From Planctomycetota bacterium (GTDB lineage: Bacteria; Planctomycetota; Phycisphaerae; SM23-33): 53,208 nucleotides of DNA. The DNA is taken from the NCBI GenBank assembly GCA_012729725.1, contig JAAYCO010000075.1, positions 1 to 53,208 on the forward strand. The letters run 5' to 3'. Both the position numbers and the translations under genes were made by a program. Below the pieces are notes generated by a model. That model had not been told where the DNA came from, did not search any database, and was given only the letters and a program-made list of their open reading frames with translations. Of this stretch, positions 5,357 to 26,678 are shown one piece after another (the stretch's first letter is position 1; each line of letters starts with the position of its first letter).

Positions 5357-6319
5357 ATGGCTCGCCGATTGGGTCTGATGGCGGTTGTGGTTGGCGCCCT
5401 GTGCGTGATCGGCTGCGGCGAAGAGCCGGCCGTAACTCTGAGCTACGTTCGCCCCGCGCAGTTCGAGGTTCCCGCGAATGTCAAAAGAGTGGCGGTGGCC
5501 ACGCTTGACGACAATTCTTCGCAGCGCAGCGGGGGCGACTGGGGCGTGATCGCCGCGGACAAGCTGGTGGGCGAGCTTGACAAGGCCAACCGCGAGTTCA
5601 AGCGGTTCGAGCTTGTCGACCATCGCAACCTCAAGGAAATACTCCAGCGCCAGGACATCCACATAATGACGTCCAACGAGGCTGCCGACGCGGGCAAGCT
5701 GGCGAACGTCCACGCGATGATCTACGGAACCGTGTCGGTGATGGCAAGCGACGAAACCGTGGTAAAGACCGTGCCCGACATTATCAATCGCGGGCTCAAG
5801 CAGAAGGAATATGTCAAGCGCCACTGCCTTGTGACGGTCAACCTGACCATGGACGACGTTGAAACGGCCCGCACGCTTCGCACGTTCACCGTCAGCAAAG
5901 AGATGGACAGCGACAAGGACAGCGCCTCGGCCCTGTCGGCAATCGGATTCAGCAGCGACAACCCGCCGCCCGTCTCACAGACTGTCAACGGGCTGATAGA
6001 CCAGTGCGTCAGCGAGTTTGTCGCGCAGATAAGCCCGCACCGCGTCGAGTTCGTGCAGAAGCTCCAGAAGGGCAAATCGAATGCGGTGAAAACCGGCAAC
6101 AAGCTCGCCGCCGCCGGCGACCACAAAGAAGCGCTCGATATGTACCTTGAAGCCCTCCAGATCAAGCCCAACGACGACGGCGCCGCCTTCAACGCCGGCG
6201 TTATGCAAGAGGCTCTTGGCAACCTCGATGCCGCCCAGGAGCTTTACACGCGGGCGTTCAGACTGAAGCAAAAGGACGAGTATGTCCAGGCTCGTCAACG
6301 TGTAAGAAATGCCGACTGA
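5357..6319 (+). CDS. CsgG/LpoB-like lipoprotein with C-terminal TPRs
   Basis: The 320-residue protein has a lipoprotein signal ending in VIGC, with Cys20 as the lipidated residue. Residues 40-150 look like the CsgG/LpoB/TolB-N type alpha-beta domain: VKRVAVATLDD strand, a KRFELVDHRNLKEILQRQ segment, then a GKLANVHAMIYGTVSV strand. Residues 245-315 form at least two TPR units (GDHKEALDMYLEALQIKPN and GNLDAAQELYTRAFRLK). The ATG at 5357 has GGAGG five bases upstream, which rules out the upstream in-frame starts. The protein probably sits at the outer membrane facing the periplasm and starts a four-gene cluster. The exact role is unknown. Confidence 0.75.
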   Translation: MARRLGLMAVVVGALCVIGCGEEPAVTLSYVRPAQFEVPANVKRVAVATLDDNSSQRSGGDWGVIAADKLVGELDKANREFKRFELVDHRNLKEILQRQDIHIMTSNEAADAGKLANVHAMIYGTVSVMASDETVVKTVPDIINRGLKQKEYVKRHCLVTVNLTMDDVETARTLRTFTVSKEMDSDKDSASALSAIGFSSDNPPPVSQTVNGLIDQCVSEFVAQISPHRVEFVQKLQKGKSNAVKTGNKLAAAGDHKEALDMYLEALQIKPNDDGAAFNAGVMQEALGNLDAAQELYTRAFRLKQKDEYVQARQRVRNAD

Positions 6320-6367
6320 CGCCGTTGTTCGGCGCATGGTCAGAAACCTTTGTCAAAGGAGATGCAA

Positions 6368-7702
6368 ATGAGAAAGTTGTGCGCAATGCTGTGCCTCGCA
6401 GGCGTGGTTCTCGCTGGCGCGGCGAATGTTCTCGCCCAGGACGTCAGGAGCGCCCAGAAAAAGGCGATGACCCTTCGGGCCGCCAGGGTTGACGGAATCC
6501 GCAAACTCGCCGAGCGGATCAAGGGCCTTCAGATTACTTCTGAAACGCGCGTCTCGGACTTCATCACGCAGTCCGACGAAATTCAGACCGCGATGCAGAC
6601 GTGGATGGCCGGCATGCGCGAAAAGGGCTCGCCGGTGTTCAACGACGATGGAACCGTCGAAGTGAAAATGGAAGTCACGCTGGAAGAGCTCATCCTCAAC
6701 CTCAAGCAGGTCTCCAGCATGTGCGTCAAGGGCAACAAGTTCAAGGCCCAGGACTTCGAGCAGATGACCGTGACCAACAAGCAGACCGTCATCACCGAAA
6801 CCGGCGTTGGCGCCCCTCCGATGGACCCGCCGGGCGCGCAGTTCGCCCCGGTTCCCTCCGGCGGCACGTACACTTCGGGCAGCCTGATGAGCGCCAAGGC
6901 CAAGGAACTGTGGGGCCAGCTGCCTCCCAACGGCAGGCTGATGGCTCTGCGGGCCGCACGCGTTGACGCGATGCGCCGCCTGGGCGAACGCCTCAACGGC
7001 ACGCTTATCACCAGCGAAACCAGCGTTCGCGACTTCATCGCCGAGAGCGACGAGGTTAATACCCGCATGGAAACCTTCCTCGCCGGCGCACGTGAAACGG
7101 CCGTCAAGTACCACGACGACGAACTCATCGTCGAGGTCGAAATGTCCGTCACGCTTCAGACCGTCTACGCCAGCCTCAAGAGCTGGGGCCAGGCCCACTA
7201 CAAGGGCGACAAGGTCAAGCTTCAGAAGCTCGAAGAGCTCTCGGTGACCACGAAGGACACCGTAATCAGCGAAACCGGCATGGGCGTGCCGCCCGAGCCG
7301 ATGGTCGCCAACATCACCGTCACCAAGAAGGCATCCGCCCCCGATTGGATCAGCAGGAAGATCAGCGCAGTCGGAAATGCCGCCCTTGACGACACCAACC
7401 CCAACGCAGCCCAGGCCAAGCTTATGGCACTGCGAGGCGCTGAACTCGACGCAAGGCGCAAACTCTCCGAACAGATCAGCGGCCTGATGATCTCCTCCAG
7501 CACCTCCGTGCAGGATTTCATCACCCAGGACGACCGTATCAAGACCGCGATGATGGACTTCCAGGTCGGAGCAACCGTCGTCGAGTCGTCAAAGAAGATC
7601 GATGAAGACGGCGTGGCCAGCGTGGAAGTCGAAATAGACCTCCAGCCGGTGTGGGACACCATCGTCTCCTACCAGAGCCGTTATTCGCTCCAGATCAAGT
7701 AA
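6368..7702 (+). CDS. secreted protein with three LPP20/FlgT_N-like repeats
   Basis: A signal peptide (cleavage likely after VLA, residue 23) precedes three homologous blocks in a 444-residue protein. Each block starts with an ALRAARVDAMRRLGER-like helix, then an ITSETSVRDFI strand-loop and a VEVEMSVTL strand, as in LPP20 and FlgT N-terminal domains. The linkers are repeated too (TVITETGVGAPP and TVISETGMGVPP), so the duplicated unit is about 140 residues. AAAGGAG (6355-6361) fits the ATG at 6368 better than that at 6362. It lies 48 bp after the lipoprotein gene. Function is unknown; a periplasmic or surface assembly role is inferred. Confidence 0.72.
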   Translation: MRKLCAMLCLAGVVLAGAANVLAQDVRSAQKKAMTLRAARVDGIRKLAERIKGLQITSETRVSDFITQSDEIQTAMQTWMAGMREKGSPVFNDDGTVEVKMEVTLEELILNLKQVSSMCVKGNKFKAQDFEQMTVTNKQTVITETGVGAPPMDPPGAQFAPVPSGGTYTSGSLMSAKAKELWGQLPPNGRLMALRAARVDAMRRLGERLNGTLITSETSVRDFIAESDEVNTRMETFLAGARETAVKYHDDELIVEVEMSVTLQTVYASLKSWGQAHYKGDKVKLQKLEELSVTTKDTVISETGMGVPPEPMVANITVTKKASAPDWISRKISAVGNAALDDTNPNAAQAKLMALRGAELDARRKLSEQISGLMISSSTSVQDFITQDDRIKTAMMDFQVGATVVESSKKIDEDGVASVEVEIDLQPVWDTIVSYQSRYSLQIK

Positions 7703-7712
7703 ACAACCCTTC

Positions 7713-7751
7713 GCCCCGGCCCGGGTGCGAAACCGGGCCGGGGCTGTTTTT
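7713..7751 (+). terminator. strong intrinsic terminator inside the envelope cluster
   Basis: A perfect 12-bp GC stem (GCCCCGGCCCGG at 7713-7724 with CCGGGCCGGGGC at 7733-7744) encloses an eight-base loop and is followed by TGTTTTT. It stands between the repeat protein and the small lipoprotein, so it should cut expression of the last two genes relative to the first two. Confidence 0.85.
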
Positions 7752-7764
7752 GAAAGGCCACGTC

Positions 7765-7917
7765 ATGACCAAACGCATTCTGTCACTGCTGGTTCTTGTC
7801 GCCCTTGCGTTCACAGGTTTAACGGTCGCCGGATGTGAAAAGGACGAGATCGACGTCCAGCGCACGACGACCATCGAAAACGTCCCCGCAGCCGCCCCGC
7901 GGATTGTCGTGCAGTAA
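7765..7917 (+). CDS. small lipoprotein (50 residues)
   Basis: The ORF encodes a signal sequence (MTKRILSLLVLVALAFTG) ending in the lipobox VAGC, so Cys24 would be lipidated. Only about 26 polar residues follow. GAAAGG lies eight bases before the ATG. It is sandwiched between the terminator at 7713-7751 and the FlgT-like gene, which begins 27 bp downstream. Its size and place recall small lipoproteins that anchor or plug envelope complexes, but no family is recognised. Confidence 0.6.
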   Translation: MTKRILSLLVLVALAFTGLTVAGCEKDEIDVQRTTTIENVPAAAPRIVVQ

Positions 7918-7944
7918 GTTCTCGCCTTGCAGAAAGGATTACCC

Positions 7945-9060
7945 ATGCGCGCCTCGCTCGCAGCCGTGCTGCTGTTGATGGCAGCCCAGGCACAGGTCTC
8001 TCTGGCCCAGAACAACGCCAACCTCAAGACGATCACCGTAACCGGAAGGGGCGATGGCAAAGACGCCGCCATGGCAGACGCCAAGCGCCGCGCGGTGGAG
8101 GAAGGCGCCGGATCGATCATCTATTCCGAATCGCAGACGCGCGACTTCCAGCTTATCAAGGACACGGTCCTTGCCCGCTCGGCAGGGTTCATTCAGGACG
8201 TGCGCGAACTGGGCGCCGGCGAGGAAGATGGAATCTACTGGGTGAAGATCGAGGCGACAGTGTCGATACAAGGCATCGTCGACATGTGGGGCACGGTCAA
8301 GAACCTGCTTCAATCAATGGGCAGGCCCAAGATCATGGTGTGGGTGACCGAGAAGATTGGGGATGAGCTTGTCGAAGACTCCACGGTGCAGGCCCGCATC
8401 GAGAACATCCTGCTTGAGAGCGGCTTCTTGCTGGTTGACCGCGAAAGAATCAAGCAGCTCATCAAGCGCGAACAGGATATTGCCGTGCTTGAAGACAAGC
8501 CCGAGCAGCTTATCGCGCTGATGAAGAAGGAAGGCGCGCAGATCTTCATCACCGGTTCCGCCAACGCAACGGGCAGGCCCCAGAACACCGGTGGAATGCA
8601 GCTTTTCGCATACGAGGCAGAGGCCAACATGCGATGCTACAACGCCGACACCGGCCAGCTTGTCTCGCGAGTGCCGGGCAAGCCCACTCGCGGCGTGCAG
8701 CGCGAATGGCGCAGCGCCGCCAAACAGGCCCTTGATTTCCAGGGCAAGCAGATCGCCCCGGTCGTGCAGGGAAACCTTCTTCAATTCTGGATGGACTGGC
8801 TCGGAGGCATTGGCGAGCTGATACTCCGCGTCGAGGGCGTATCGTTCAGCGATTACGTCGAACTTGAAGAGCAGCTAAAGCAGCTGCCGGACATCAAGGA
8901 CATCAACGTCGAGTACAGCAACGACATGGCGACGTTCTCGATTCAGTCACAGGCGCGGGCGCTTGACATAGCCAAGGAAATAGCCAAGAAGATCAAGACG
9001 CTCAAGATCAGCGACGTTTCCGCCAACGTCATAAAGGCAACTTACAAGCCTGCCCAGTAG
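7945..9060 (+). CDS. secreted LPP20/FlgT-like protein
   Basis: The 371-residue protein has a signal peptide (cleavage likely after SLA, residue 21). An LPP20/FlgT_N-like domain follows at about 30-115 ([36 protein letters not shown]). A CsgG/TolB-N-like domain comes next at about 125-230 ([44 protein letters not shown]). The last 100 residues form a further alpha-beta domain ([21 protein letters not shown]). This order is that of FlgT-type flagellar ring proteins, but no flagellar gene is present. GAAAGGA six bases before 7945 sets the start over an upstream TTG. The 3' end overlaps the convergent methyltransferase gene by 32 bp. Confidence 0.7.
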
Positions 9061-14077: not shown

Positions 14078-17000
14078 GTGCTTGACTCTCGCAGATTCTT
14101 GTCCCTGACGTTTGGGATCGCCTTCATGCTTGCCTTTGCCTGCGTCGCAACGGCACAAACCAGCGACGCCGACGCCGCCTCGGCCCTGCTTCAGCAGGGT
14201 ATCAAGGAGTATCAGGCGTACAACTTCTCACAGTCCAAGGCGGTGCTGCTGAAGGTGGACCAGGGATCTCTCAACCAGGCGGACCGCATCACCCTGGCCG
14301 AGTATCTCAACAGGGTGGACGGCGCGATCCGCCGCCAAAGCGCCGCCCAGGAAGCTCTCGAAGCAGGCGTCAGCGCCCTTGAAAACAACAATCTTGAAGA
14401 TGCCCGCCGGAACTTCGCCCTGGCCGCCGACAGCGAGTTCCTGCCCCCGTCGCAGCGTCAGGCCGCCCAGCAGCAGTTGGTGCTGACCGAGCAGCGAATC
14501 GCCGCCGCCCCGGCAGCAGCCCCGGCGCAGACCGACGCGCAGCCAGTTGTCGTCCAGGCTCAAGACCAGGCCGACGCCGAGGTCGCCCAGGCAGAGCCTG
14601 CAGAAACCGCCGCCCCTGCCGAAACAGCAACTCCGGTGACGCCGGCGCCGGTGATCGAAGATCCAATGGCGCAGGTCGAACGTAACCGCGCACAGGCCCG
14701 CGAACTGCTCGAACAAGCCCGCCTTGAAATGCAGCTTGAGCAGTACCAGACCGCCCTGACGAGGCTGAGACAGGCACAGGCGCTGGCTCCGAACCTGCCA
14801 GAGATTGAGCAGGCGCTCAGCGAGGCCGAGGCCCGAGTGGCCCAGCGCGAGCAGGCCGGCGATCATCTCAGTGAATTGGCCCGCAGAATTCAGCGTTACA
14901 AGCAGGCAGCCGATATCAGCATCGAAGAATCGCTCCGCCGGGCCCGCGAGATAGTCTCCGCCGCCCAGACGGGCGCCGAATTCGACGCAGCCGCCGGCGC
15001 AATCAACGTTGCAGAAAACACGCTGGCCTCCAACCGCCAGTACTACAGCGCCGAGGAAATCCGCCAGCGCGAGATGCGGATCGGCGAGGTTGACCGTCTT
15101 GTCACCCGCAGCCGGGCGGACTGGGAGCGAGCCCAGGCCGACGCCGCAAGGGCCGCAATCGCTCAGCAGGAGGCCCAGAGAATCGCCGGCCAGCAGGCGG
15201 CGTTCCAGCAGGAACTTGACCGCCTCAGCGACCAGGCCCAGGTGCTTGTCCGCGGCAGGCAGTATGACGAAGCCATCTCCGTGCTGGAGCAGATCGTCCG
15301 CCTTGAGCCCAACAACCGCTGGGCTCGCGAGCAAATAACGCTTCTGGAGCAGATCAGCATTCTTGAAAAGGACCGTTCAGCCAATCACGACCGCACCCTG
15401 CAGACGCAGATGTCGCTGGTTGACCTTCGCGAGTCAGAGATACCCTGGTACGACCTGATTCGCTATCCCCGCGACTGGCGCGATATCACGGCCCGCCGTC
15501 AGCCTCTGAGCGATGGCCTGGGCAGCGAAAACGAAGCCAGCAGAGCCCTGAACAACCGGCTCAAGACCATGCGGATTCCCCGCGTGCAGTTCGACAACGT
15601 CGGGCTTGAAGCCGTTATCGACTGGATTCAGAACTTCGCCAACATCAACATCCATGTCAAGTGGCCCGCGCTGGAGCAGTCTTCCCCGCCGATCACCCCC
15701 GATTCGCAGGTCAGAGGCATCAACCTGACCAACGTCACGGTTGAAAAGGCCCTGAGGACAATCCTTGAAGATGTCAGCGGTGGGTGGACGCCGTTAACGT
15801 ACCTGGTCGAAGATGGGGTTTTGACGATATCGACCCGGGAAGACCTTTCGGCGATGCGCTACCGTCGGACGGAAGTCTACGACATTCGCGACTTGATTAT
15901 CGCCGTGCCGGACTTCGCCGGTCCTCGCATGGAGGTTGGCAACGCCGGCAGCAGCAACGGCGGAGGCGGCAGCCTGTTCAACGAAGACGATGACGACGAC
16001 GATAACAATGACGACGCCCCCAGCAGGCAGGAAATCATCACCTCCATCATCGATCTCATCACCGGCACCATTGACCCGACCTCGTGGCGAGGCGACATGG
16101 GCGGCGACATCGGCTCGATACGCCAGATTCACGGGCAGCTCGTCATTACCCAAACACCCGACAACCACCGTGAGATTCTAGAGCTTATCAACAAGCTAAG
16201 AGAAGCGCAGGCGATTCAGATAGCTATCGAAACTCGGTTCGTGTCGGTGTTGACCGGCTTCCTCAACCAGATCGGCCTCGACCTGCAAATGTACTTTAAC
16301 ACCGGATCGAGACTCGGCGGCGGCGGTGTAACGGTTGATCCCGCCACAGGCGCTGTTGTGCCCGTGAACGGCCCGTCCGGCTGGACTTGGGGCGGGCATA
16401 AGGCGAGTGGCACCAACTCGCTGACGCCGATTCCCGTCCTGCAACGCACGTTTGACGACTTCTCCAACGTGGTGGGCGTTGAAACCCGCGGCACGACCAG
16501 CCAGAAGATCGGGCAGTTGGTGACGGAGCCCGGCCTGGTCGTGGCAGGCACGTTCCTGGACGACATACAGGTGGACTTCCTCTTGGCGGCCACCCAGGCC
16601 AGCCAGACGTCACGCGCAATGACCGCTCCGCGTTTGACGCTGTTCAACGGCCAGCGGGCCTATGTCACCGTGGGCACAAGAACGGCTTACGTATCCGACA
16701 TCAGTCCGGTGGTTTCGGGCAACGTCATATCGTTTGAACCTGAAGTCGAGGATATTCTCACAGGTGCGATCATGGATGTCCGCGGCACGGTCTCCGCGGA
16801 TCGGCGGTACGTCACGCTTGAGGTTCGGCCCCAGTTGAGCGAGCTTATTGGCTTCAGGCCGTACGCAACGCAGAGCCAAATTGAGGCCGACGGTTCTCGC
16901 ACGGACATCGGCATACTGCTGCTGCCGACCATCTCTGTGCAGGAGCTGATGACGGTGGTTTCGGTTCCCGACGGCGGAACGCTTCTGTTGGGCGGCCAGA

Positions 17001-17179
17001 AAACCAGCGGCGAGATCGAACGCGAGAAGGGCGTGCCCCTGCTTAGCAAGGTGCCCATTATCAACCGCGCGTTCACCAACCGCGGAACCGTTCGCGATGA
17101 GGAAACCATCCTCATCATGATCAAGCCGCGGATCATCATCCACCGCGAAGAAGAAGACCGCTTCTTCCCCCCAGGCTGA
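14078..17179 (+). CDS. secretin-family outer-membrane channel with long periplasmic N-terminus
   Basis: The 1033-residue protein begins with a signal peptide (residues 1-27, ending VATAQ). About 450 residues of Ala/Gln/Glu-rich helical repeats follow, TPR- and coiled-coil-like (QYDEAISVLEQIVRLEPNN near 400). N0/N1-type secretin domains come next (RIPRVQFDNVGLEAVIDWIQ), then the C-terminal secretin beta-domain with VPDGGTLLLGGQK and GVPLLSKVPIINRAFTNR. An acidic low-complexity loop (EDDDDDDNNDD, about residue 635-645) splits the middle. It should form the outer-membrane gate of a type II secretion or type IV pilus-like machine. No partner gene is adjacent. The start is GTG. Confidence 0.85.
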   Translation: MLDSRRFLSLTFGIAFMLAFACVATAQTSDADAASALLQQGIKEYQAYNFSQSKAVLLKVDQGSLNQADRITLAEYLNRVDGAIRRQSAAQEALEAGVSALENNNLEDARRNFALAADSEFLPPSQRQAAQQQLVLTEQRIAAAPAAAPAQTDAQPVVVQAQDQADAEVAQAEPAETAAPAETATPVTPAPVIEDPMAQVERNRAQARELLEQARLEMQLEQYQTALTRLRQAQALAPNLPEIEQALSEAEARVAQREQAGDHLSELARRIQRYKQAADISIEESLRRAREIVSAAQTGAEFDAAAGAINVAENTLASNRQYYSAEEIRQREMRIGEVDRLVTRSRADWERAQADAARAAIAQQEAQRIAGQQAAFQQELDRLSDQAQVLVRGRQYDEAISVLEQIVRLEPNNRWAREQITLLEQISILEKDRSANHDRTLQTQMSLVDLRESEIPWYDLIRYPRDWRDITARRQPLSDGLGSENEASRALNNRLKTMRIPRVQFDNVGLEAVIDWIQNFANINIHVKWPALEQSSPPITPDSQVRGINLTNVTVEKALRTILEDVSGGWTPLTYLVEDGVLTISTREDLSAMRYRRTEVYDIRDLIIAVPDFAGPRMEVGNAGSSNGGGGSLFNEDDDDDDNNDDAPSRQEIITSIIDLITGTIDPTSWRGDMGGDIGSIRQIHGQLVITQTPDNHREILELINKLREAQAIQIAIETRFVSVLTGFLNQIGLDLQMYFNTGSRLGGGGVTVDPATGAVVPVNGPSGWTWGGHKASGTNSLTPIPVLQRTFDDFSNVVGVETRGTTSQKIGQLVTEPGLVVAGTFLDDIQVDFLLAATQASQTSRAMTAPRLTLFNGQRAYVTVGTRTAYVSDISPVVSGNVISFEPEVEDILTGAIMDVRGTVSADRRYVTLEVRPQLSELIGFRPYATQSQIEADGSRTDIGILLLPTISVQELMTVVSVPDGGTLLLGGQKTSGEIEREKGVPLLSKVPIINRAFTNRGTVRDEETILIMIKPRIIIHREEEDRFFPPG

Positions 17180-17285: not shown

Positions 17286-17957
17286 TTAGAGGCCGGTTGA
17301 TCGGCTGGCGATGAACTCGTGAAGCATCGCCTGGAACTTGCGAAGGGCCTTGCCGCGGTGGCTAAGCGAGTTCTTCTGCTCGGGGGGCAGCTCGGCTGTG
17401 GTCTTGCCAAGGGTTGGAATGTGGAAGAGGGGGTCGTATCCAAAGCCGCCCTGCCCGCTGGGTTGCCTTGCGATTACGCCTTCGACGCTGTCGCAGGTTT
17501 CGAGCATCACCTGCATGCCATCCGAAAGAGCTAGACAGCACACGAACCGGGCGGTGCGCTGGGCATCGGCGACGTTGTCCAGCGCCTTGAGCAGCTTGGC
17601 GTTATTGGCGGCGTCAATCACTTCCCGACCGGAACCGGGCGGCGCATCCGCGGCAGCATAGCGAGCGCTGTGCACGCCGGGCCGGCCGCCAAGCGCGTCG
17701 ACCACCAGTCCCGAGTCATCCGCCAGGCACCACTTGCCCGTGGCGCGAGCGTAGTACATCGCCTTCTGTGCGGCATTTTCGGCGAACGTCTCGCCCGTTT
17801 CCTCCGGTTCGGGAACATGCGGATATTCGTCCAGCGACTCCACGGCGATGGGCATGCCCTGGAGCACCTGGCGTATTTCCTTGATTTTGCCCCTATTCCG
17901 GGTGGCCAGTACGATAACGTCAGGGACGTGCGGTCCGCTGTGGGATGAGCGTAACAT
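17286..17957 (-). CDS. rdgB: XTP/dITP pyrophosphatase
   Basis: The 223-residue protein is a Ham1/RdgB house-cleaning enzyme that hydrolyses dITP and XTP to monophosphates. Motifs are ATRNRGKIKEI near the start, the catalytic ADDSGLVVDALGGRPGVHSARYA block, GFGYDPLF, and the C-terminal LSHRGKALRKF. The ATG at 17957 lies inside the upstream gene, giving a 38-bp overlap and suggesting coupled translation. AAAGGA is 11 bases upstream. No later start keeps the first strand intact. Confidence 0.94.
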   Translation of the reverse strand: MLRSSHSGPHVPDVIVLATRNRGKIKEIRQVLQGMPIAVESLDEYPHVPEPEETGETFAENAAQKAMYYARATGKWCLADDSGLVVDALGGRPGVHSARYAAADAPPGSGREVIDAANNAKLLKALDNVADAQRTARFVCCLALSDGMQVMLETCDSVEGVIARQPSGQGGFGYDPLFHIPTLGKTTAELPPEQKNSLSHRGKALRKFQAMLHEFIASRSTGL

Positions 17958-23298: not shown

Positions 23299-23882
23299 GA
23301 GAATTTCTCTTGCTCGCCGGCCGAAACCTTCGCCGTCCATCTGGCGGATGAACCGGCCGAGGCGTATCCAGAAGATGTAAAATCCGAACCCGCCTTCGGC
23401 ATTTCATCGGCAGCTTGTTGTTTATCCCAGCCGCAGAGCACTACCCGGTAGGCAGCGGCGTAGACGCCGGTGCGTTCCGCCCCGCGCATGCAGTAGATGA
23501 AGACCGGCGTTCGCTTCGGATCGTTCATTATCCGAAGGAACCTGATGATGTGATCCTGCGGAACGCTCCACACAACCGACGGCAGGCGGATGTAATCCAG
23601 GCCCTCGCGGGCTGCTTGCCGGCTGTCGTCATGAAAGGCCCGAACGCTGATGACGGTTTTGATGCCCAGTTCGCGCAGGCTCTTGAAGCCCTCTGCGGTT
23701 GGCGGGCCTCCGCGGTAAAGCTTGTCGCTGACCTTGAAGAGATTCGGCAGGCCTGGCAGCGACATGCTCTGCGCCCAGCTATCGGGCCGCTTGCCGTCCG
23801 GGCGGGGTGTAACACGAATCGCGCCGCACCCCGCGGCAGTCAACAAAACCAGCATCCCCGCGCGAATACACAGGCCGACCAT
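23227..23882 (-). pseudogene. tyrosine/dual-specificity phosphatase-like lipoprotein, frameshifted
   Basis: The reading frame encodes a lipoprotein signal ending in TAAGC, the YRGGPPTAEGFKSLRELGIKTVI segment of PTP-like phosphatases, and the catalytic CX5R loop in YCMRGAERTGVYAA. After ADEMP (about 23397-23400) this frame turns into low-quality sequence ending at 23238. Moving to another frame there gives EGGFGFYIFWIRLGRFIRQM, the normal family ending, which continues to a stop at 23227. One base seems to be missing at this point, through mutation or sequencing error. Catalytic residues lie before the break. The start at 23882 is approximate. Confidence 0.7.
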
Positions 23883-23975
23883 CACTGCGCCCCCAAAGCC
23901 GACAGGCAATTCTATGTCAGCATTCGCGGCATGTGGCGAGGCTTGATTTCCTGCCAATCTTTGGCCCAATTTGGA

Positions 23976-24004
23976 TTGATTCCGCCGCGGTTTTCTGGGA
24001 TTAT
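23976..24004 (+). promoter_or_regulatory. sigma70-type promoter of hppA
   Basis: TTGATT (23976-23981) and GATTAT (23999-24004) are 17 bp apart and four of six bases of each fit the consensus. This would give a leader of about 55 bases ending in GAAGGAG before the hppA ATG. Confidence 0.45.
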
Positions 24005-24065
24005 TGCCCGACCGCGCTCTGTAACAGCGGTTAATCTACGGACTGGAAACTATTGAAGGAGTCAG

Positions 24066-26678
24066 ATGGTGAACAAAGGTGAAGGGTACTCTGGGCATCT
24101 TTCCAAGTGGATGTTGGTCGGACTGGTTCTGGCCTGCATTGGCGGCAGCGCACTGACCGCGTTCGGTCAGGGCGCAAGTGCGACTGCCCAAGCTGCCGAA
24201 CAAGTCACGAATGACGTGCCGATTCCCGCCATATGGTACGTGGCGCCAGGCGGCGCATTAGTTGCGCTGGTCTTTGCCTGGCTGTTCTTCCGCCAGGTGA
24301 AGAACGCCGATCCCGGCGACGCGCGGATGCAGGAAATCGCCGGTTACGTCACCCAGGGCGCATATGCCTACCTGAAGCGCCAGTACAAGGTGGTGGCGGT
24401 CTTCTTCATCATCGTTTCGGCCATCCTTTTTGTCATGGGCCAATACGATATTCAGCATCCCATCGTGTTCGTGGCTTTCCTCACGGGCGGCTTCTTCAGC
24501 GGCCTGTGCGGCTTCTTGGGCATGAAGACGGCGACGATGGCCTCAAACCGCACCGCGCAGGGCGCAAAGACAAGCCTCAACAACGGCTTGCAGATCGCCT
24601 TCCGCGCAGGCGCTGTCATGGGCCTGGTGGTCGTGGGCTTCGGGCTGATTGACATCTCCCTGTGGTTCATCCTTCTGACCAAGATCGCCCCGATGTTCAA
24701 CTACGAGATGTCGCTGTTCGAAGTGACGGTGGTCATGTTGACGTTCGGCATGGGCGCCAGCTCCCAGGCGTTGTTCGCGCGTGTTGGCGGCGGCATCTAC
24801 ACTAAGGCCGCCGACGTGGGCGCCGACCTTGTGGGCAAGGTTGAAGCCGGCATTCCTGAAGACGATCCGCGTAACCCGGCCACTATCGCCGACAATGTTG
24901 GCGACAACGTTGGCGACGTCGCCGGCATGGGCGCCGATCTGTACGAAAGCTACTGCGGTTCGATTCTCGCCACGGCGGCGCTGGGCGTCGCGGCTGCGAT
25001 TGGCCTTGGCATCAGCGATCTCGGCGCGCAGGTTCGGCTGATCTCGCTGCCGATGGTGCTCGCGGGCGTTGGCATCTTCCTGAGCATCCTGGGCATCTAC
25101 ATGGTGCGGGCGAAGGAAAACGCCTCCATGAAGCAGCTCATGGGCGCACTGAACACCGGCATTTTTGGTTCAACAATCCTTATCGCACTGGCGGGCCTTG
25201 GCATCTGCTACTGGATGCTCAACCCCGTTCCCGGCGTCAACTGGCTGGGCGTCTGGGGTTCGATCATCACCGGTCTGCTTGCCGGCGTTGCTATCGGCAA
25301 GTTCACCGAGTACTACACCAGCTATGACTACAAGCCCGTGAAGGAGCTTGCAGGCCAGTCCGAAACCGGCCCGGCGACCATCATCATCGGCGGCATCGCC
25401 GAAGGCATGAAGAGCACGTGGGCGTCGCTGGCTACAATCAGTATCGCAATCCTGCTGGCGTACGGCTTCGCCGGCGGGTTCAGTTCGATGTCGCTGGGCC
25501 TCTATGGCGTCGGCATCGCCGCCGTCGGCATGCTGGCCACGCTGGGCATCACACTTGCAACCGATGCGTACGGCCCGATCGCCGACAACGCCGGCGGAAA
25601 CGCCGAGATGACGCATCAGGCGCCGGAAGTTCGCAAGCGAACCGACGCGCTGGACAGTCTTGGAAACACAACTGCCGCGACCGGCAAGGGTTTCGCCATC
25701 GGCTCGGCAGCGTTGACCGCACTTGCCCTTCTGGCTGCATACGTCGAGGAAGTGCGCGTCGGCCTGACCCGCGAGGCCGATTCCGTCCTGCAGGCGGCCG
25801 CCGATCCGTCCGCAATCGTCTACCTCGGCTCGGGCAAGTTCGCCGCGAGAATCGACGGCGAGCCACGCACGCTGCTGGCGCTGACTGGCGATCTGGATAT
25901 CGTCAAGCAACTGCCCAAGGGCGCTGCAACCGGACGGATTGTCAGCCCGGCAACGCCCGAGGAACTCCGCGCGGTGGACAATGTCCGCCGTTTGACGCTC
26001 ATGGTTGACAACCGCCCCCACGCGGTTGACGTTGTAACCGCAAAGGACGCGTCGCTGAGCCAGTACATGAGCTATTATGACGTGACGCTGCTGAACCCCA
26101 AGGTTCTGTGCGGCCTGTTCGCGGGCGTGCTGCTTGTCTTCCTCTTCAGCGCGATGACGATGAAGGCTGTCGGCAGGGCAGCGAAGGCGATGGTGATGGA
26201 AGTGCGAAGGCAGTTCCGTGAAATCGCCGGCATTATGGAAGGCACCGGCAAACCCGATTACGCAAGCTGCGTGGCAATTTCAACCGCCGGCGCACAGAGA
26301 GAGATGATCGTTCCATCCCTCCTGTCGCTTGCCGTTCCGGTGGCGGTGGGCCTGGTGTTGGGTGTTCCGGGCGTGCTTGGCCTGCTTGCGGGCGGCCTGG
26401 CCAGCGGGTTCGCCATGGCTGTTTTCATGGCGAATGCCGGCGGCGCGTGGGACAACTGCAAGAAGTACATCGAAACCGGCGAATATGGCGGAAAGGGTTC
26501 GCAGAACCACAAGGCCGCCGTTGTCGGCGATACCGTCGGCGACCCGTTCAAGGACACCTCCGGCCCGAGCTTGAACATTCTTATCAAGCTCATGAGCATG
26601 GTCTCGGTGGTCTTCGCGGGTCTTATCGTGAAGTACTCGCCGATGGTTTCCGATTGGCTCGGAATGAGCGGCAACTGA
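24066..26678 (+). CDS. hppA: membrane-bound ion-translocating pyrophosphatase
   Basis: The 870-residue protein couples PPi hydrolysis to ion pumping. It carries the substrate-binding block [13 protein letters not shown] and [20 protein letters not shown], and [17 protein letters not shown]. Its [18 protein letters not shown] segment is also diagnostic. Ala in [10 protein letters not shown], where K-independent enzymes have Lys, points to the potassium-dependent subfamily. The ADLYESY glutamate is placed as in Na-pumping and some H-pumping enzymes, so the ion is undecided. It is over 100 residues longer than most relatives. About 110 extra residues sit between two membrane helices (25745-26090), and an extra hydrophobic N-terminal segment is present. 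Confidence 0.95.

Follow-up and report, generated by a model that had tools for sequence, protein, structure and literature searches.

A cluster of four genes for secreted proteins

The DNA analysed here (the window) is a stretch of 53,208 nucleotides of contig JAAYCO010000075.1 from a planctomycete of the class Phycisphaerae, and at positions 5357-9060 it carries four neighbouring genes, all on the + strand, which we call P1 to P4 (Table 1). Their products include relatives of the flagellar ring proteins FlgP and FlgT, and the set is kept across Phycisphaerae, including two genomes in which four flagellar markers were not found. An initial annotation of this DNA had predicted four consecutive genes for secreted proteins, and all four were found, on the + strand and where it had put them. 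It had also read P1 as a CsgG/LpoB-like lipoprotein with tetratricopeptide repeats (TPRs), P2 as a triple LPP20/FlgT_N-like repeat protein and P3 as a 50-residue lipoprotein, identities that are borne out below, while its reading of P4 needs an addition.

Table 1. Genes, domains and other features of the P1-P4 cluster, in window coordinates
Feature	Position	Strand	Description
P1	5357..6319	+	320-residue lipoprotein, CsgG/LpoB-type domain and C-terminal TPRs
P1 lipobox Cys20	codon 5414-5416	+	Cys nearly invariant in 19 relatives
P1 CsgG/LpoB-type domain	about 5477-6034	+	Pfam CsgG, 3.7e-7
P1 C-terminal TPRs	about 6074-6292	+	TPR_1, 3.3e-7
P2	6368..7702	+	444 residues, secreted, three LPP20/FlgP-type (SHS2-like) domains, no lipobox
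P2 domain 1	6449..6724	+	residues about 28-119; alignments of relatives and AlphaFold2 model
Strand with GxG motif after P2 domain 1	about 6782-6814	+	
P2 domain 2	6920..7198	+	residues about 185-277; alignments of relatives and AlphaFold2 model
Strand with GxG motif after P2 domain 2	about 7256-7288	+	
P2 domain 3	7343..7687	+	residues about 326-440; strand-helix order as in FlgP
Terminator-like hairpin between P2 and P3	7713..7744	+	12 G-C pairs, then TGTTTTTG
P3	7765..7917	+	50-residue lipoprotein (by lipobox); about 26 residues beyond the lipidated Cys
P4	7945..9060	+	371 residues, FlgT-like, plain signal peptide, no lipobox
P4 N-terminal LPP20/FlgT_N-like domain	8020..8283	+	residues about 26-113
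P4 middle domain	8320..8802	+	residues about 126-286; TolB N-terminal/PelC/CsgG/LpoB fold
P4 C-terminal ferredoxin-like (HMA-like) domain	8806..9048	+	residues about 288-368; strand/helix order of the model, weak HMA matches

Domain make-up of the four proteins

Pfam searches and structure predictions of single proteins, both of which the initial annotation had called for, recovered CsgG in P1, LPP20 in P2 and FlgT_N, CsgG and LpoB among relatives of P4, and gave related folds for P2 and P4, with FlgT as the best match of P4 in the PDB. The LPP20 match of P2 scores 36 bits against a cut-off of 25.9 (9.6e-9) and recurs in 35 of 42 relatives, and the three-domain layout is visible in the relatives' alignments as well as in the AlphaFold2 monomer model (mean predicted local distance difference test score, pLDDT, 87). 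When a profile of the 42 relatives was compared with solved chains it matched C. jejuni 9hmf_C (4.7e-13) and Vibrio FlgP 8z5n_2 (1.5e-6); entry 9hmf is the C. jejuni motor scaffold, and the basal disk of C. jejuni is made of FlgP according to PMC12222027. Domain 3 gave the best profile alignment, to C. jejuni FlgP residues 69-160, which is nearly gapless and takes in the region of an insert that separates the SHS2 helix from the second strand and that, according to PMC12222027, correlates with ring formation in the FlgP family. Lpp20 (5ok8) superposed on domain 3 only (residues 326-443, VIA-align Z 9.0) and Foldseek, run with the complete P2 model, gave a weak result in which FlgP 9hmf_A came first at E 0.015, as can happen with multi-domain models. 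P2 is a triple FlgP-like protein, and FlgP comes closest to it by sequence. As read from alignment and model, a strand with a GxG motif follows domains 1 and 2 of P2 and precedes domain 3, the latter as in FlgP; a 93-nucleotide direct repeat (6727-6819 and 7201-7293, 73%) lies inside the gene. A Pfam LPP20 search of the window's own genome returned no match even in controls and is uninformative.

For P4, the window protein alone had no significant Pfam match, while 44 relatives gave FlgT_N in 19 cases (best 1.9e-7), HMA in 5, CsgG in 4, LpoB in 1 and FlgT_C in none. Its AlphaFold2 model (mean pLDDT 87.7, predicted template modelling score, pTM, 0.74) has three domains, and a Foldseek search of that model against all solved structures placed on top 8z5n_0 from the Vibrio LPHT ring (E 2.4e-10) and the FlgT crystal structure 3w1e (2.3e-9). 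Chain 0 of 8z5n we take to be FlgT because its alignment with P4 resembles that of 3w1e. The structural match to FlgT begins at residue 28 of P4 and, with 8z5n_0, reaches residue 361 (VIA-align Z 10.8, 236 residues, root-mean-square deviation, rmsd, 5.9); with 3w1e the alignment covers 210 residues at Z 11.5 and an rmsd of 17, presumably owing to differing angles between the domains. The middle domain aligns equally with TolB (Z 11.3, rmsd 2.9 over 120 residues), PelC (Z 11.2), CsgG (Z 9.8) and LpoB (Z 9.6). When P4 was searched against PDB sequences its N-terminal domain matched FlgP 9hmf_C (3.7e-5), and FlgT was not among the matches, the link to FlgT being by fold and Pfam. The prediction of an LPP20-like domain followed by a CsgG/TolB-like one in P4 is thus supported by its relatives' Pfam matches and by the FlgT and TolB folds; what it had missed is a third domain (about residues 290-368), the last 80 residues being ferredoxin-like in the model. 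P4 further matches the NCBIfam model LipL46 over residues 38-326 (1.6e-8), at 33.6 bits for a model cut-off of 400. A P4 paralogue of 25% identity (G000:C165:2411-3511, also L091:2150-3538) sits among metabolic genes with no P1 or P2 beside it.

The CsgG match of P1 exceeds the family cut-off and is accompanied by TPRs and a lipobox. Scanned alone, the CsgG domain gave CsgG matches in 11 of 17 relatives (best 3.1e-16) together with weak LpoB matches, and a profile of this domain run against PDB sequences found none. By hhalign it is related to the middle domain of P4 (E 5.4e-7), and the domain 2 region of P2 is related to the P4 N-domain (E 9.8e-8); most of the cluster is therefore made up of two domain types that recur in it.

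Proteins with multiple LPP20 domains are found in other classes of the phylum as well, in open frames of up to 1472 residues (G185:C40:27412-31410, with several LPP20 matches), so that FlgP-type repeats can exceed three by far.

Conservation of the cluster

Among 150 genomes of the class Phycisphaerae, P2 (threshold E below 1e-40) is present in 30 and P4 in 33, and all 30 P2-bearing genomes also have P4 (Fisher 1.7e-28, kinship ignored). This co-occurrence holds in four families where the two genes lie far apart. In a second sample of 80 named loci, nearly all of them from metagenome-assembled genomes of Phycisphaerae or other planctomycetes (one is labelled Chlamydiae and one Auribacterota), P1 lies immediately upstream of P2 54 times and P4 immediately downstream of P2 or P3 36 times, on the same strand. 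Layouts comprise P1-P2-P3, P1-P2-P3-P4, forms with a doubled P4 and P2-P2'-P4 without P1. Far from being scattered in all relatives - the outcome that the initial annotation had asked to be checked - the P1-P2-P3 order is kept in tens of Phycisphaerae genomes, with P4 adjoining or elsewhere.

P3 is a real conserved family that is encoded after P2. Its profile was built from 25 seed sequences, the majority of them taken from the same 80 loci. It gave 65 matches directly behind P2 (in 62 of the 80 loci) and 4 elsewhere among 10,147 short open reading frames, one of these four likewise located right after P2; when only the mature part was used as a profile, there were 43 matches behind P2 and 0 elsewhere in the same set. 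A rule based only on the lipobox, applied before the profile, had already picked up short lipoproteins after 54 of 96 P2 copies vs 43 of 360 control genes. Many members share a C-terminal motif such as SPGEMVVE.

The genes that recur around the cluster are unrelated housekeeping genes which vary by lineage (GcpE, ribosomal proteins L13/S9, MutS, semialdehyde dehydrogenase). Flagellar genes are not among these neighbours, and neither curli subunit or CsgEF, Pel, PBP, Pal, Tol or glycosyltransferase genes nor polymer or substrate genes recur beside it. This bears on two explanations that start from the CsgG-type folds. One sees a CsgG-like export or polysaccharide-handling machine with P1 as outer-membrane pore or PelC-like ring and P2 to P4 as periplasmic gate or scaffold, which would agree with the CsgG domain of P1 and the PelC/CsgG/TolB fold in P4; however, the lack of recurring substrate, glycosyltransferase or polymer genes, a TPR tail unlike CsgG and the fact that non-pore LpoB, TolB and FlgT have the same fold make it very improbable to our minds. 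The other, in which P1 and P4 would regulate peptidoglycan synthesis or envelope stability in the manner of LpoB or TolB and P2 would be a periplasmic spacer, draws on the likeness of P4 to LpoB and the TolB N-domain and on the weak LpoB matches of P1 relatives. As this likeness reflects a shared fold and the recurring neighbours include none of PBP, Pal or Tol, we think wall or outer-membrane maintenance improbable, too.

Comparison with known systems

FlgP, FlgO and FlgT are known as flagellar add-ons, which support the motor against the outer membrane and increase torque. The Vibrio H-ring is formed by FlgO, FlgP and FlgT (PMC6375700), and V. fischeri encodes flgOP and flgT as adjacent but separate units, with all three required for normal flagella (PMC3948606). 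The initial annotation had proposed that FlgT and CsgG modules are spread here over four proteins. Its module assignments and the FlgT link hold, but FlgT is not split over four genes. We reject that option because the order of domains in FlgT (LPP20-like, then TolB/CsgG-like) is found in P4 by itself, while P2 is a triple FlgP-like protein and P1 a lipoprotein of the CsgG type. A closer parallel is the set of three proteins FlgO, FlgP and FlgT, with P1 in the FlgO position.

Like the Vibrio set (PMC3948606), the cluster combines a lipoprotein with FlgP-like and FlgT-like proteins in adjacent genes; unlike it, the lipoprotein is of the CsgG-TPR kind and not FlgO by Pfam, there is an extra micro-lipoprotein and flagellar linkage is lacking. 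With FlgP of the Campylobacter basal disk and Vibrio H-ring, P2 shares the LPP20/SHS2-type domain and the nearly gapless alignment of domain 3, yet FlgP is a single-domain lipoprotein whereas P2 has three domains per chain, a signal peptide without lipobox Cys, GxG strands behind domains 1 and 2 where FlgP has its strand in front, and a separate 50-residue lipoprotein gene behind it. C. jejuni FlgQ, which resembles a repeat of two FlgPs according to PMC12222027, also has tandem FlgP-like domains, but two instead of three and with other partners. P4 is like FlgT of Vibrio H-ring/T-ring assembly in domain order, best PDB fold and the FlgT_N matches of its relatives, and differs in its ferredoxin-like C-terminus without FlgT_C match, in being encoded outside flagellar loci and in its presence without flagella. 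P1 shares CsgG domain and lipobox with the CsgG, PelC and LpoB lipoproteins but not their curli, Pel or PBP gene neighbours, and has a TPR tail; Leptospira LipL46 is a named lipoprotein, in contrast to P4 with no lipobox and a score far below the model's cut-off. In the literature that our search covered, which included few subscription journals, we found no description of FlgP- or FlgT-like proteins from planctomycetes or outside flagella. The set is homologous to the modules of FlgP and FlgT and probably works in a similar way; it departs from them in lacking a flagellar context and in not having the form of a single-domain lipoprotein that FlgP has.

Relation to flagella

The window's own genome has canonical FlgI, FlhA, FliG and flagellin and is therefore flagellated. 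The annotators' remark that flagellar, curli and Tol genes are absent is thus accurate for the surroundings as read but not, as to flagella, for the genome, and the lack of flagellar genes near the cluster is therefore no evidence by itself. Independence from flagella is instead argued from relatives that keep the cluster without them. In G036 (93% complete), where all four genes stand side by side, and in G064 (95%) the cluster genes are intact but FliG, FlhA, flagellin and canonical FlgI were not found; in cluster-bearing G105 (83%) flagellin and canonical FlgI were not found. Conversely, 80 flagellated genomes of the 150 have no P2, and within the window's family (20 listed genomes) flagellated members make up 9 of 12 with and 6 of 8 without the cluster, showing no association. 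With the cluster present where flagellar markers are lacking, absent from flagellated genomes and unassociated within the family, a purely flagellar role is unlikely and a strictly flagellar function is weakened, though the role of the cluster may be one from which the flagellum benefits as well.

These data also bear on the view that P2 and P4 are the flagellar H-ring or basal disk of Phycisphaerae around the L/P rings, carriers without flagella being recent losses or incomplete assemblies. In its favour, the nearest homologues FlgP and FlgT are flagellar, canonical FliG occurs in 30 of 33 P4 carriers, and in the window's genome, itself flagellated, the flagellar loci yielded no further gene of FlgP/FlgT type, the sole P4 paralogue being the one among metabolic genes. 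Set against this are the two genomes that lack all four markers while keeping the genes intact, the flagellated relatives without the cluster, the missing association inside the family and the fact that no recurrent neighbourhood has the cluster beside flagellar genes, so that we consider this view unlikely.

On balance we favour, with somewhat more confidence than doubt, that P1 to P4 form an envelope complex homologous to the outer-membrane ring module of proteobacterial flagella (FlgO/FlgP/FlgT H-ring; FlgP basal disk), which is kept in Phycisphaerae without needing a flagellum. Several points weigh against this. Flagella are commoner among P4 carriers (30 of 33) than in the rest of the class (77 of 117; uncorrected p 0.004), and their absence in the three relatives rests on draft genomes. 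Pfam FlgO did not match P1 or its relatives, which gave CsgG instead. The P2 model has a pTM of 0.57 with an uncertain arrangement of its domains, and shows helices, not an extended hairpin, at the segment matching the ring-forming insert of FlgP. Finally, the AlphaFold2 models are of single chains, not of a complex.

FlgI has at least one match in all 150 genomes, flagellated or not; where canonical FlgI is missing, a weak match (roughly 80-100 bits) lies within a long frame (roughly 550-700 residues). FlgI alone is therefore a poor flagellum marker in planctomycetes. Apart from its canonical flagellar genes, the window's genome has a second flagellar-type export apparatus on contig C225, with FliG_C at 17629-17889 in an unusually long frame of 584 residues and FHIPEP at 23773-25728; the same pair was seen in further genomes of the family, and G057 and G105 have no other system of this kind. 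About 15 kb from this second FHIPEP gene lies a gene (L092:6491-10048, on C225) for a 1186-residue protein with Ser/Thr kinase, partial CsgG-like and FGE-sulfatase domains, and a reverse transcriptase gene follows just downstream.

A possible outer-membrane ring or disk

For the preferred reading of a ring-module homologue in the envelope, the following scheme for localisation, ring formation, partners and purpose may be envisaged by homology. P2 would be exported to the periplasm and polymerise laterally by way of its FlgP-type domains, so that a single chain would contribute three "protomers" to a ring or disk. The PDB names FlgP chains as lipoproteins, and because P2 is without the lipid anchor that FlgP has, P3 is a candidate tether that would hold non-lipidated P2 to the outer membrane. 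Lipid-anchored P1 might provide a second oligomerising platform of the CsgG/LpoB type with its TPRs as docking sites, and P4 might act as the FlgT-like connector, its LPP20-like domain facing the P2 layer and its TolB/CsgG-like and C-terminal domains facing P1 or a further partner. That the locus could specify an uncharacterised outer-membrane assembly of planctomycetes, as first suggested, holds for an uncharacterised envelope assembly across Phycisphaerae, the outer-membrane part being plausible.

More tentatively, we can imagine a free-standing outer-membrane machine - triple FlgP, FlgT-like connector, CsgG-TPR lipoprotein and micro-lipoprotein tether - that is found in the absence of flagella. 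It would represent either the kind of structure that was recruited to become H-rings and basal disks or a branch that broke away from these. A conserved set with FlgO/P/T-type building blocks in flagellum-less genomes makes a non-flagellar outer-membrane ring directly testable, may offer a clue to the origin of flagellar rings and marks out an as yet unnamed envelope complex, widespread in Phycisphaerae, with P3 as a specific candidate for its membrane tether. A link to the crateriform structures of planctomycetes was considered and dropped as nothing in the data bears on it.

Other features of the locus

A scan for sigma-70 promoters found none. The terminator-like hairpin behind P2 is present in 2 of 98 P2 copies of relatives and is not conserved; the two-unit layout that it prompted (P1-P2 and P3-P4, as in flgOP and flgT) was dropped for this reason and since P3 travels with P2. 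Elsewhere in the window (14078-17179) a 1033-residue secretin with an N-terminal TPR region is encoded, and no other type II or type IV pilus genes were seen directly adjoining it. The cluster itself is flanked by a 6-phosphofructokinase-like gene on one side and a convergent DNA methylase gene on the other, both named from their sequence.

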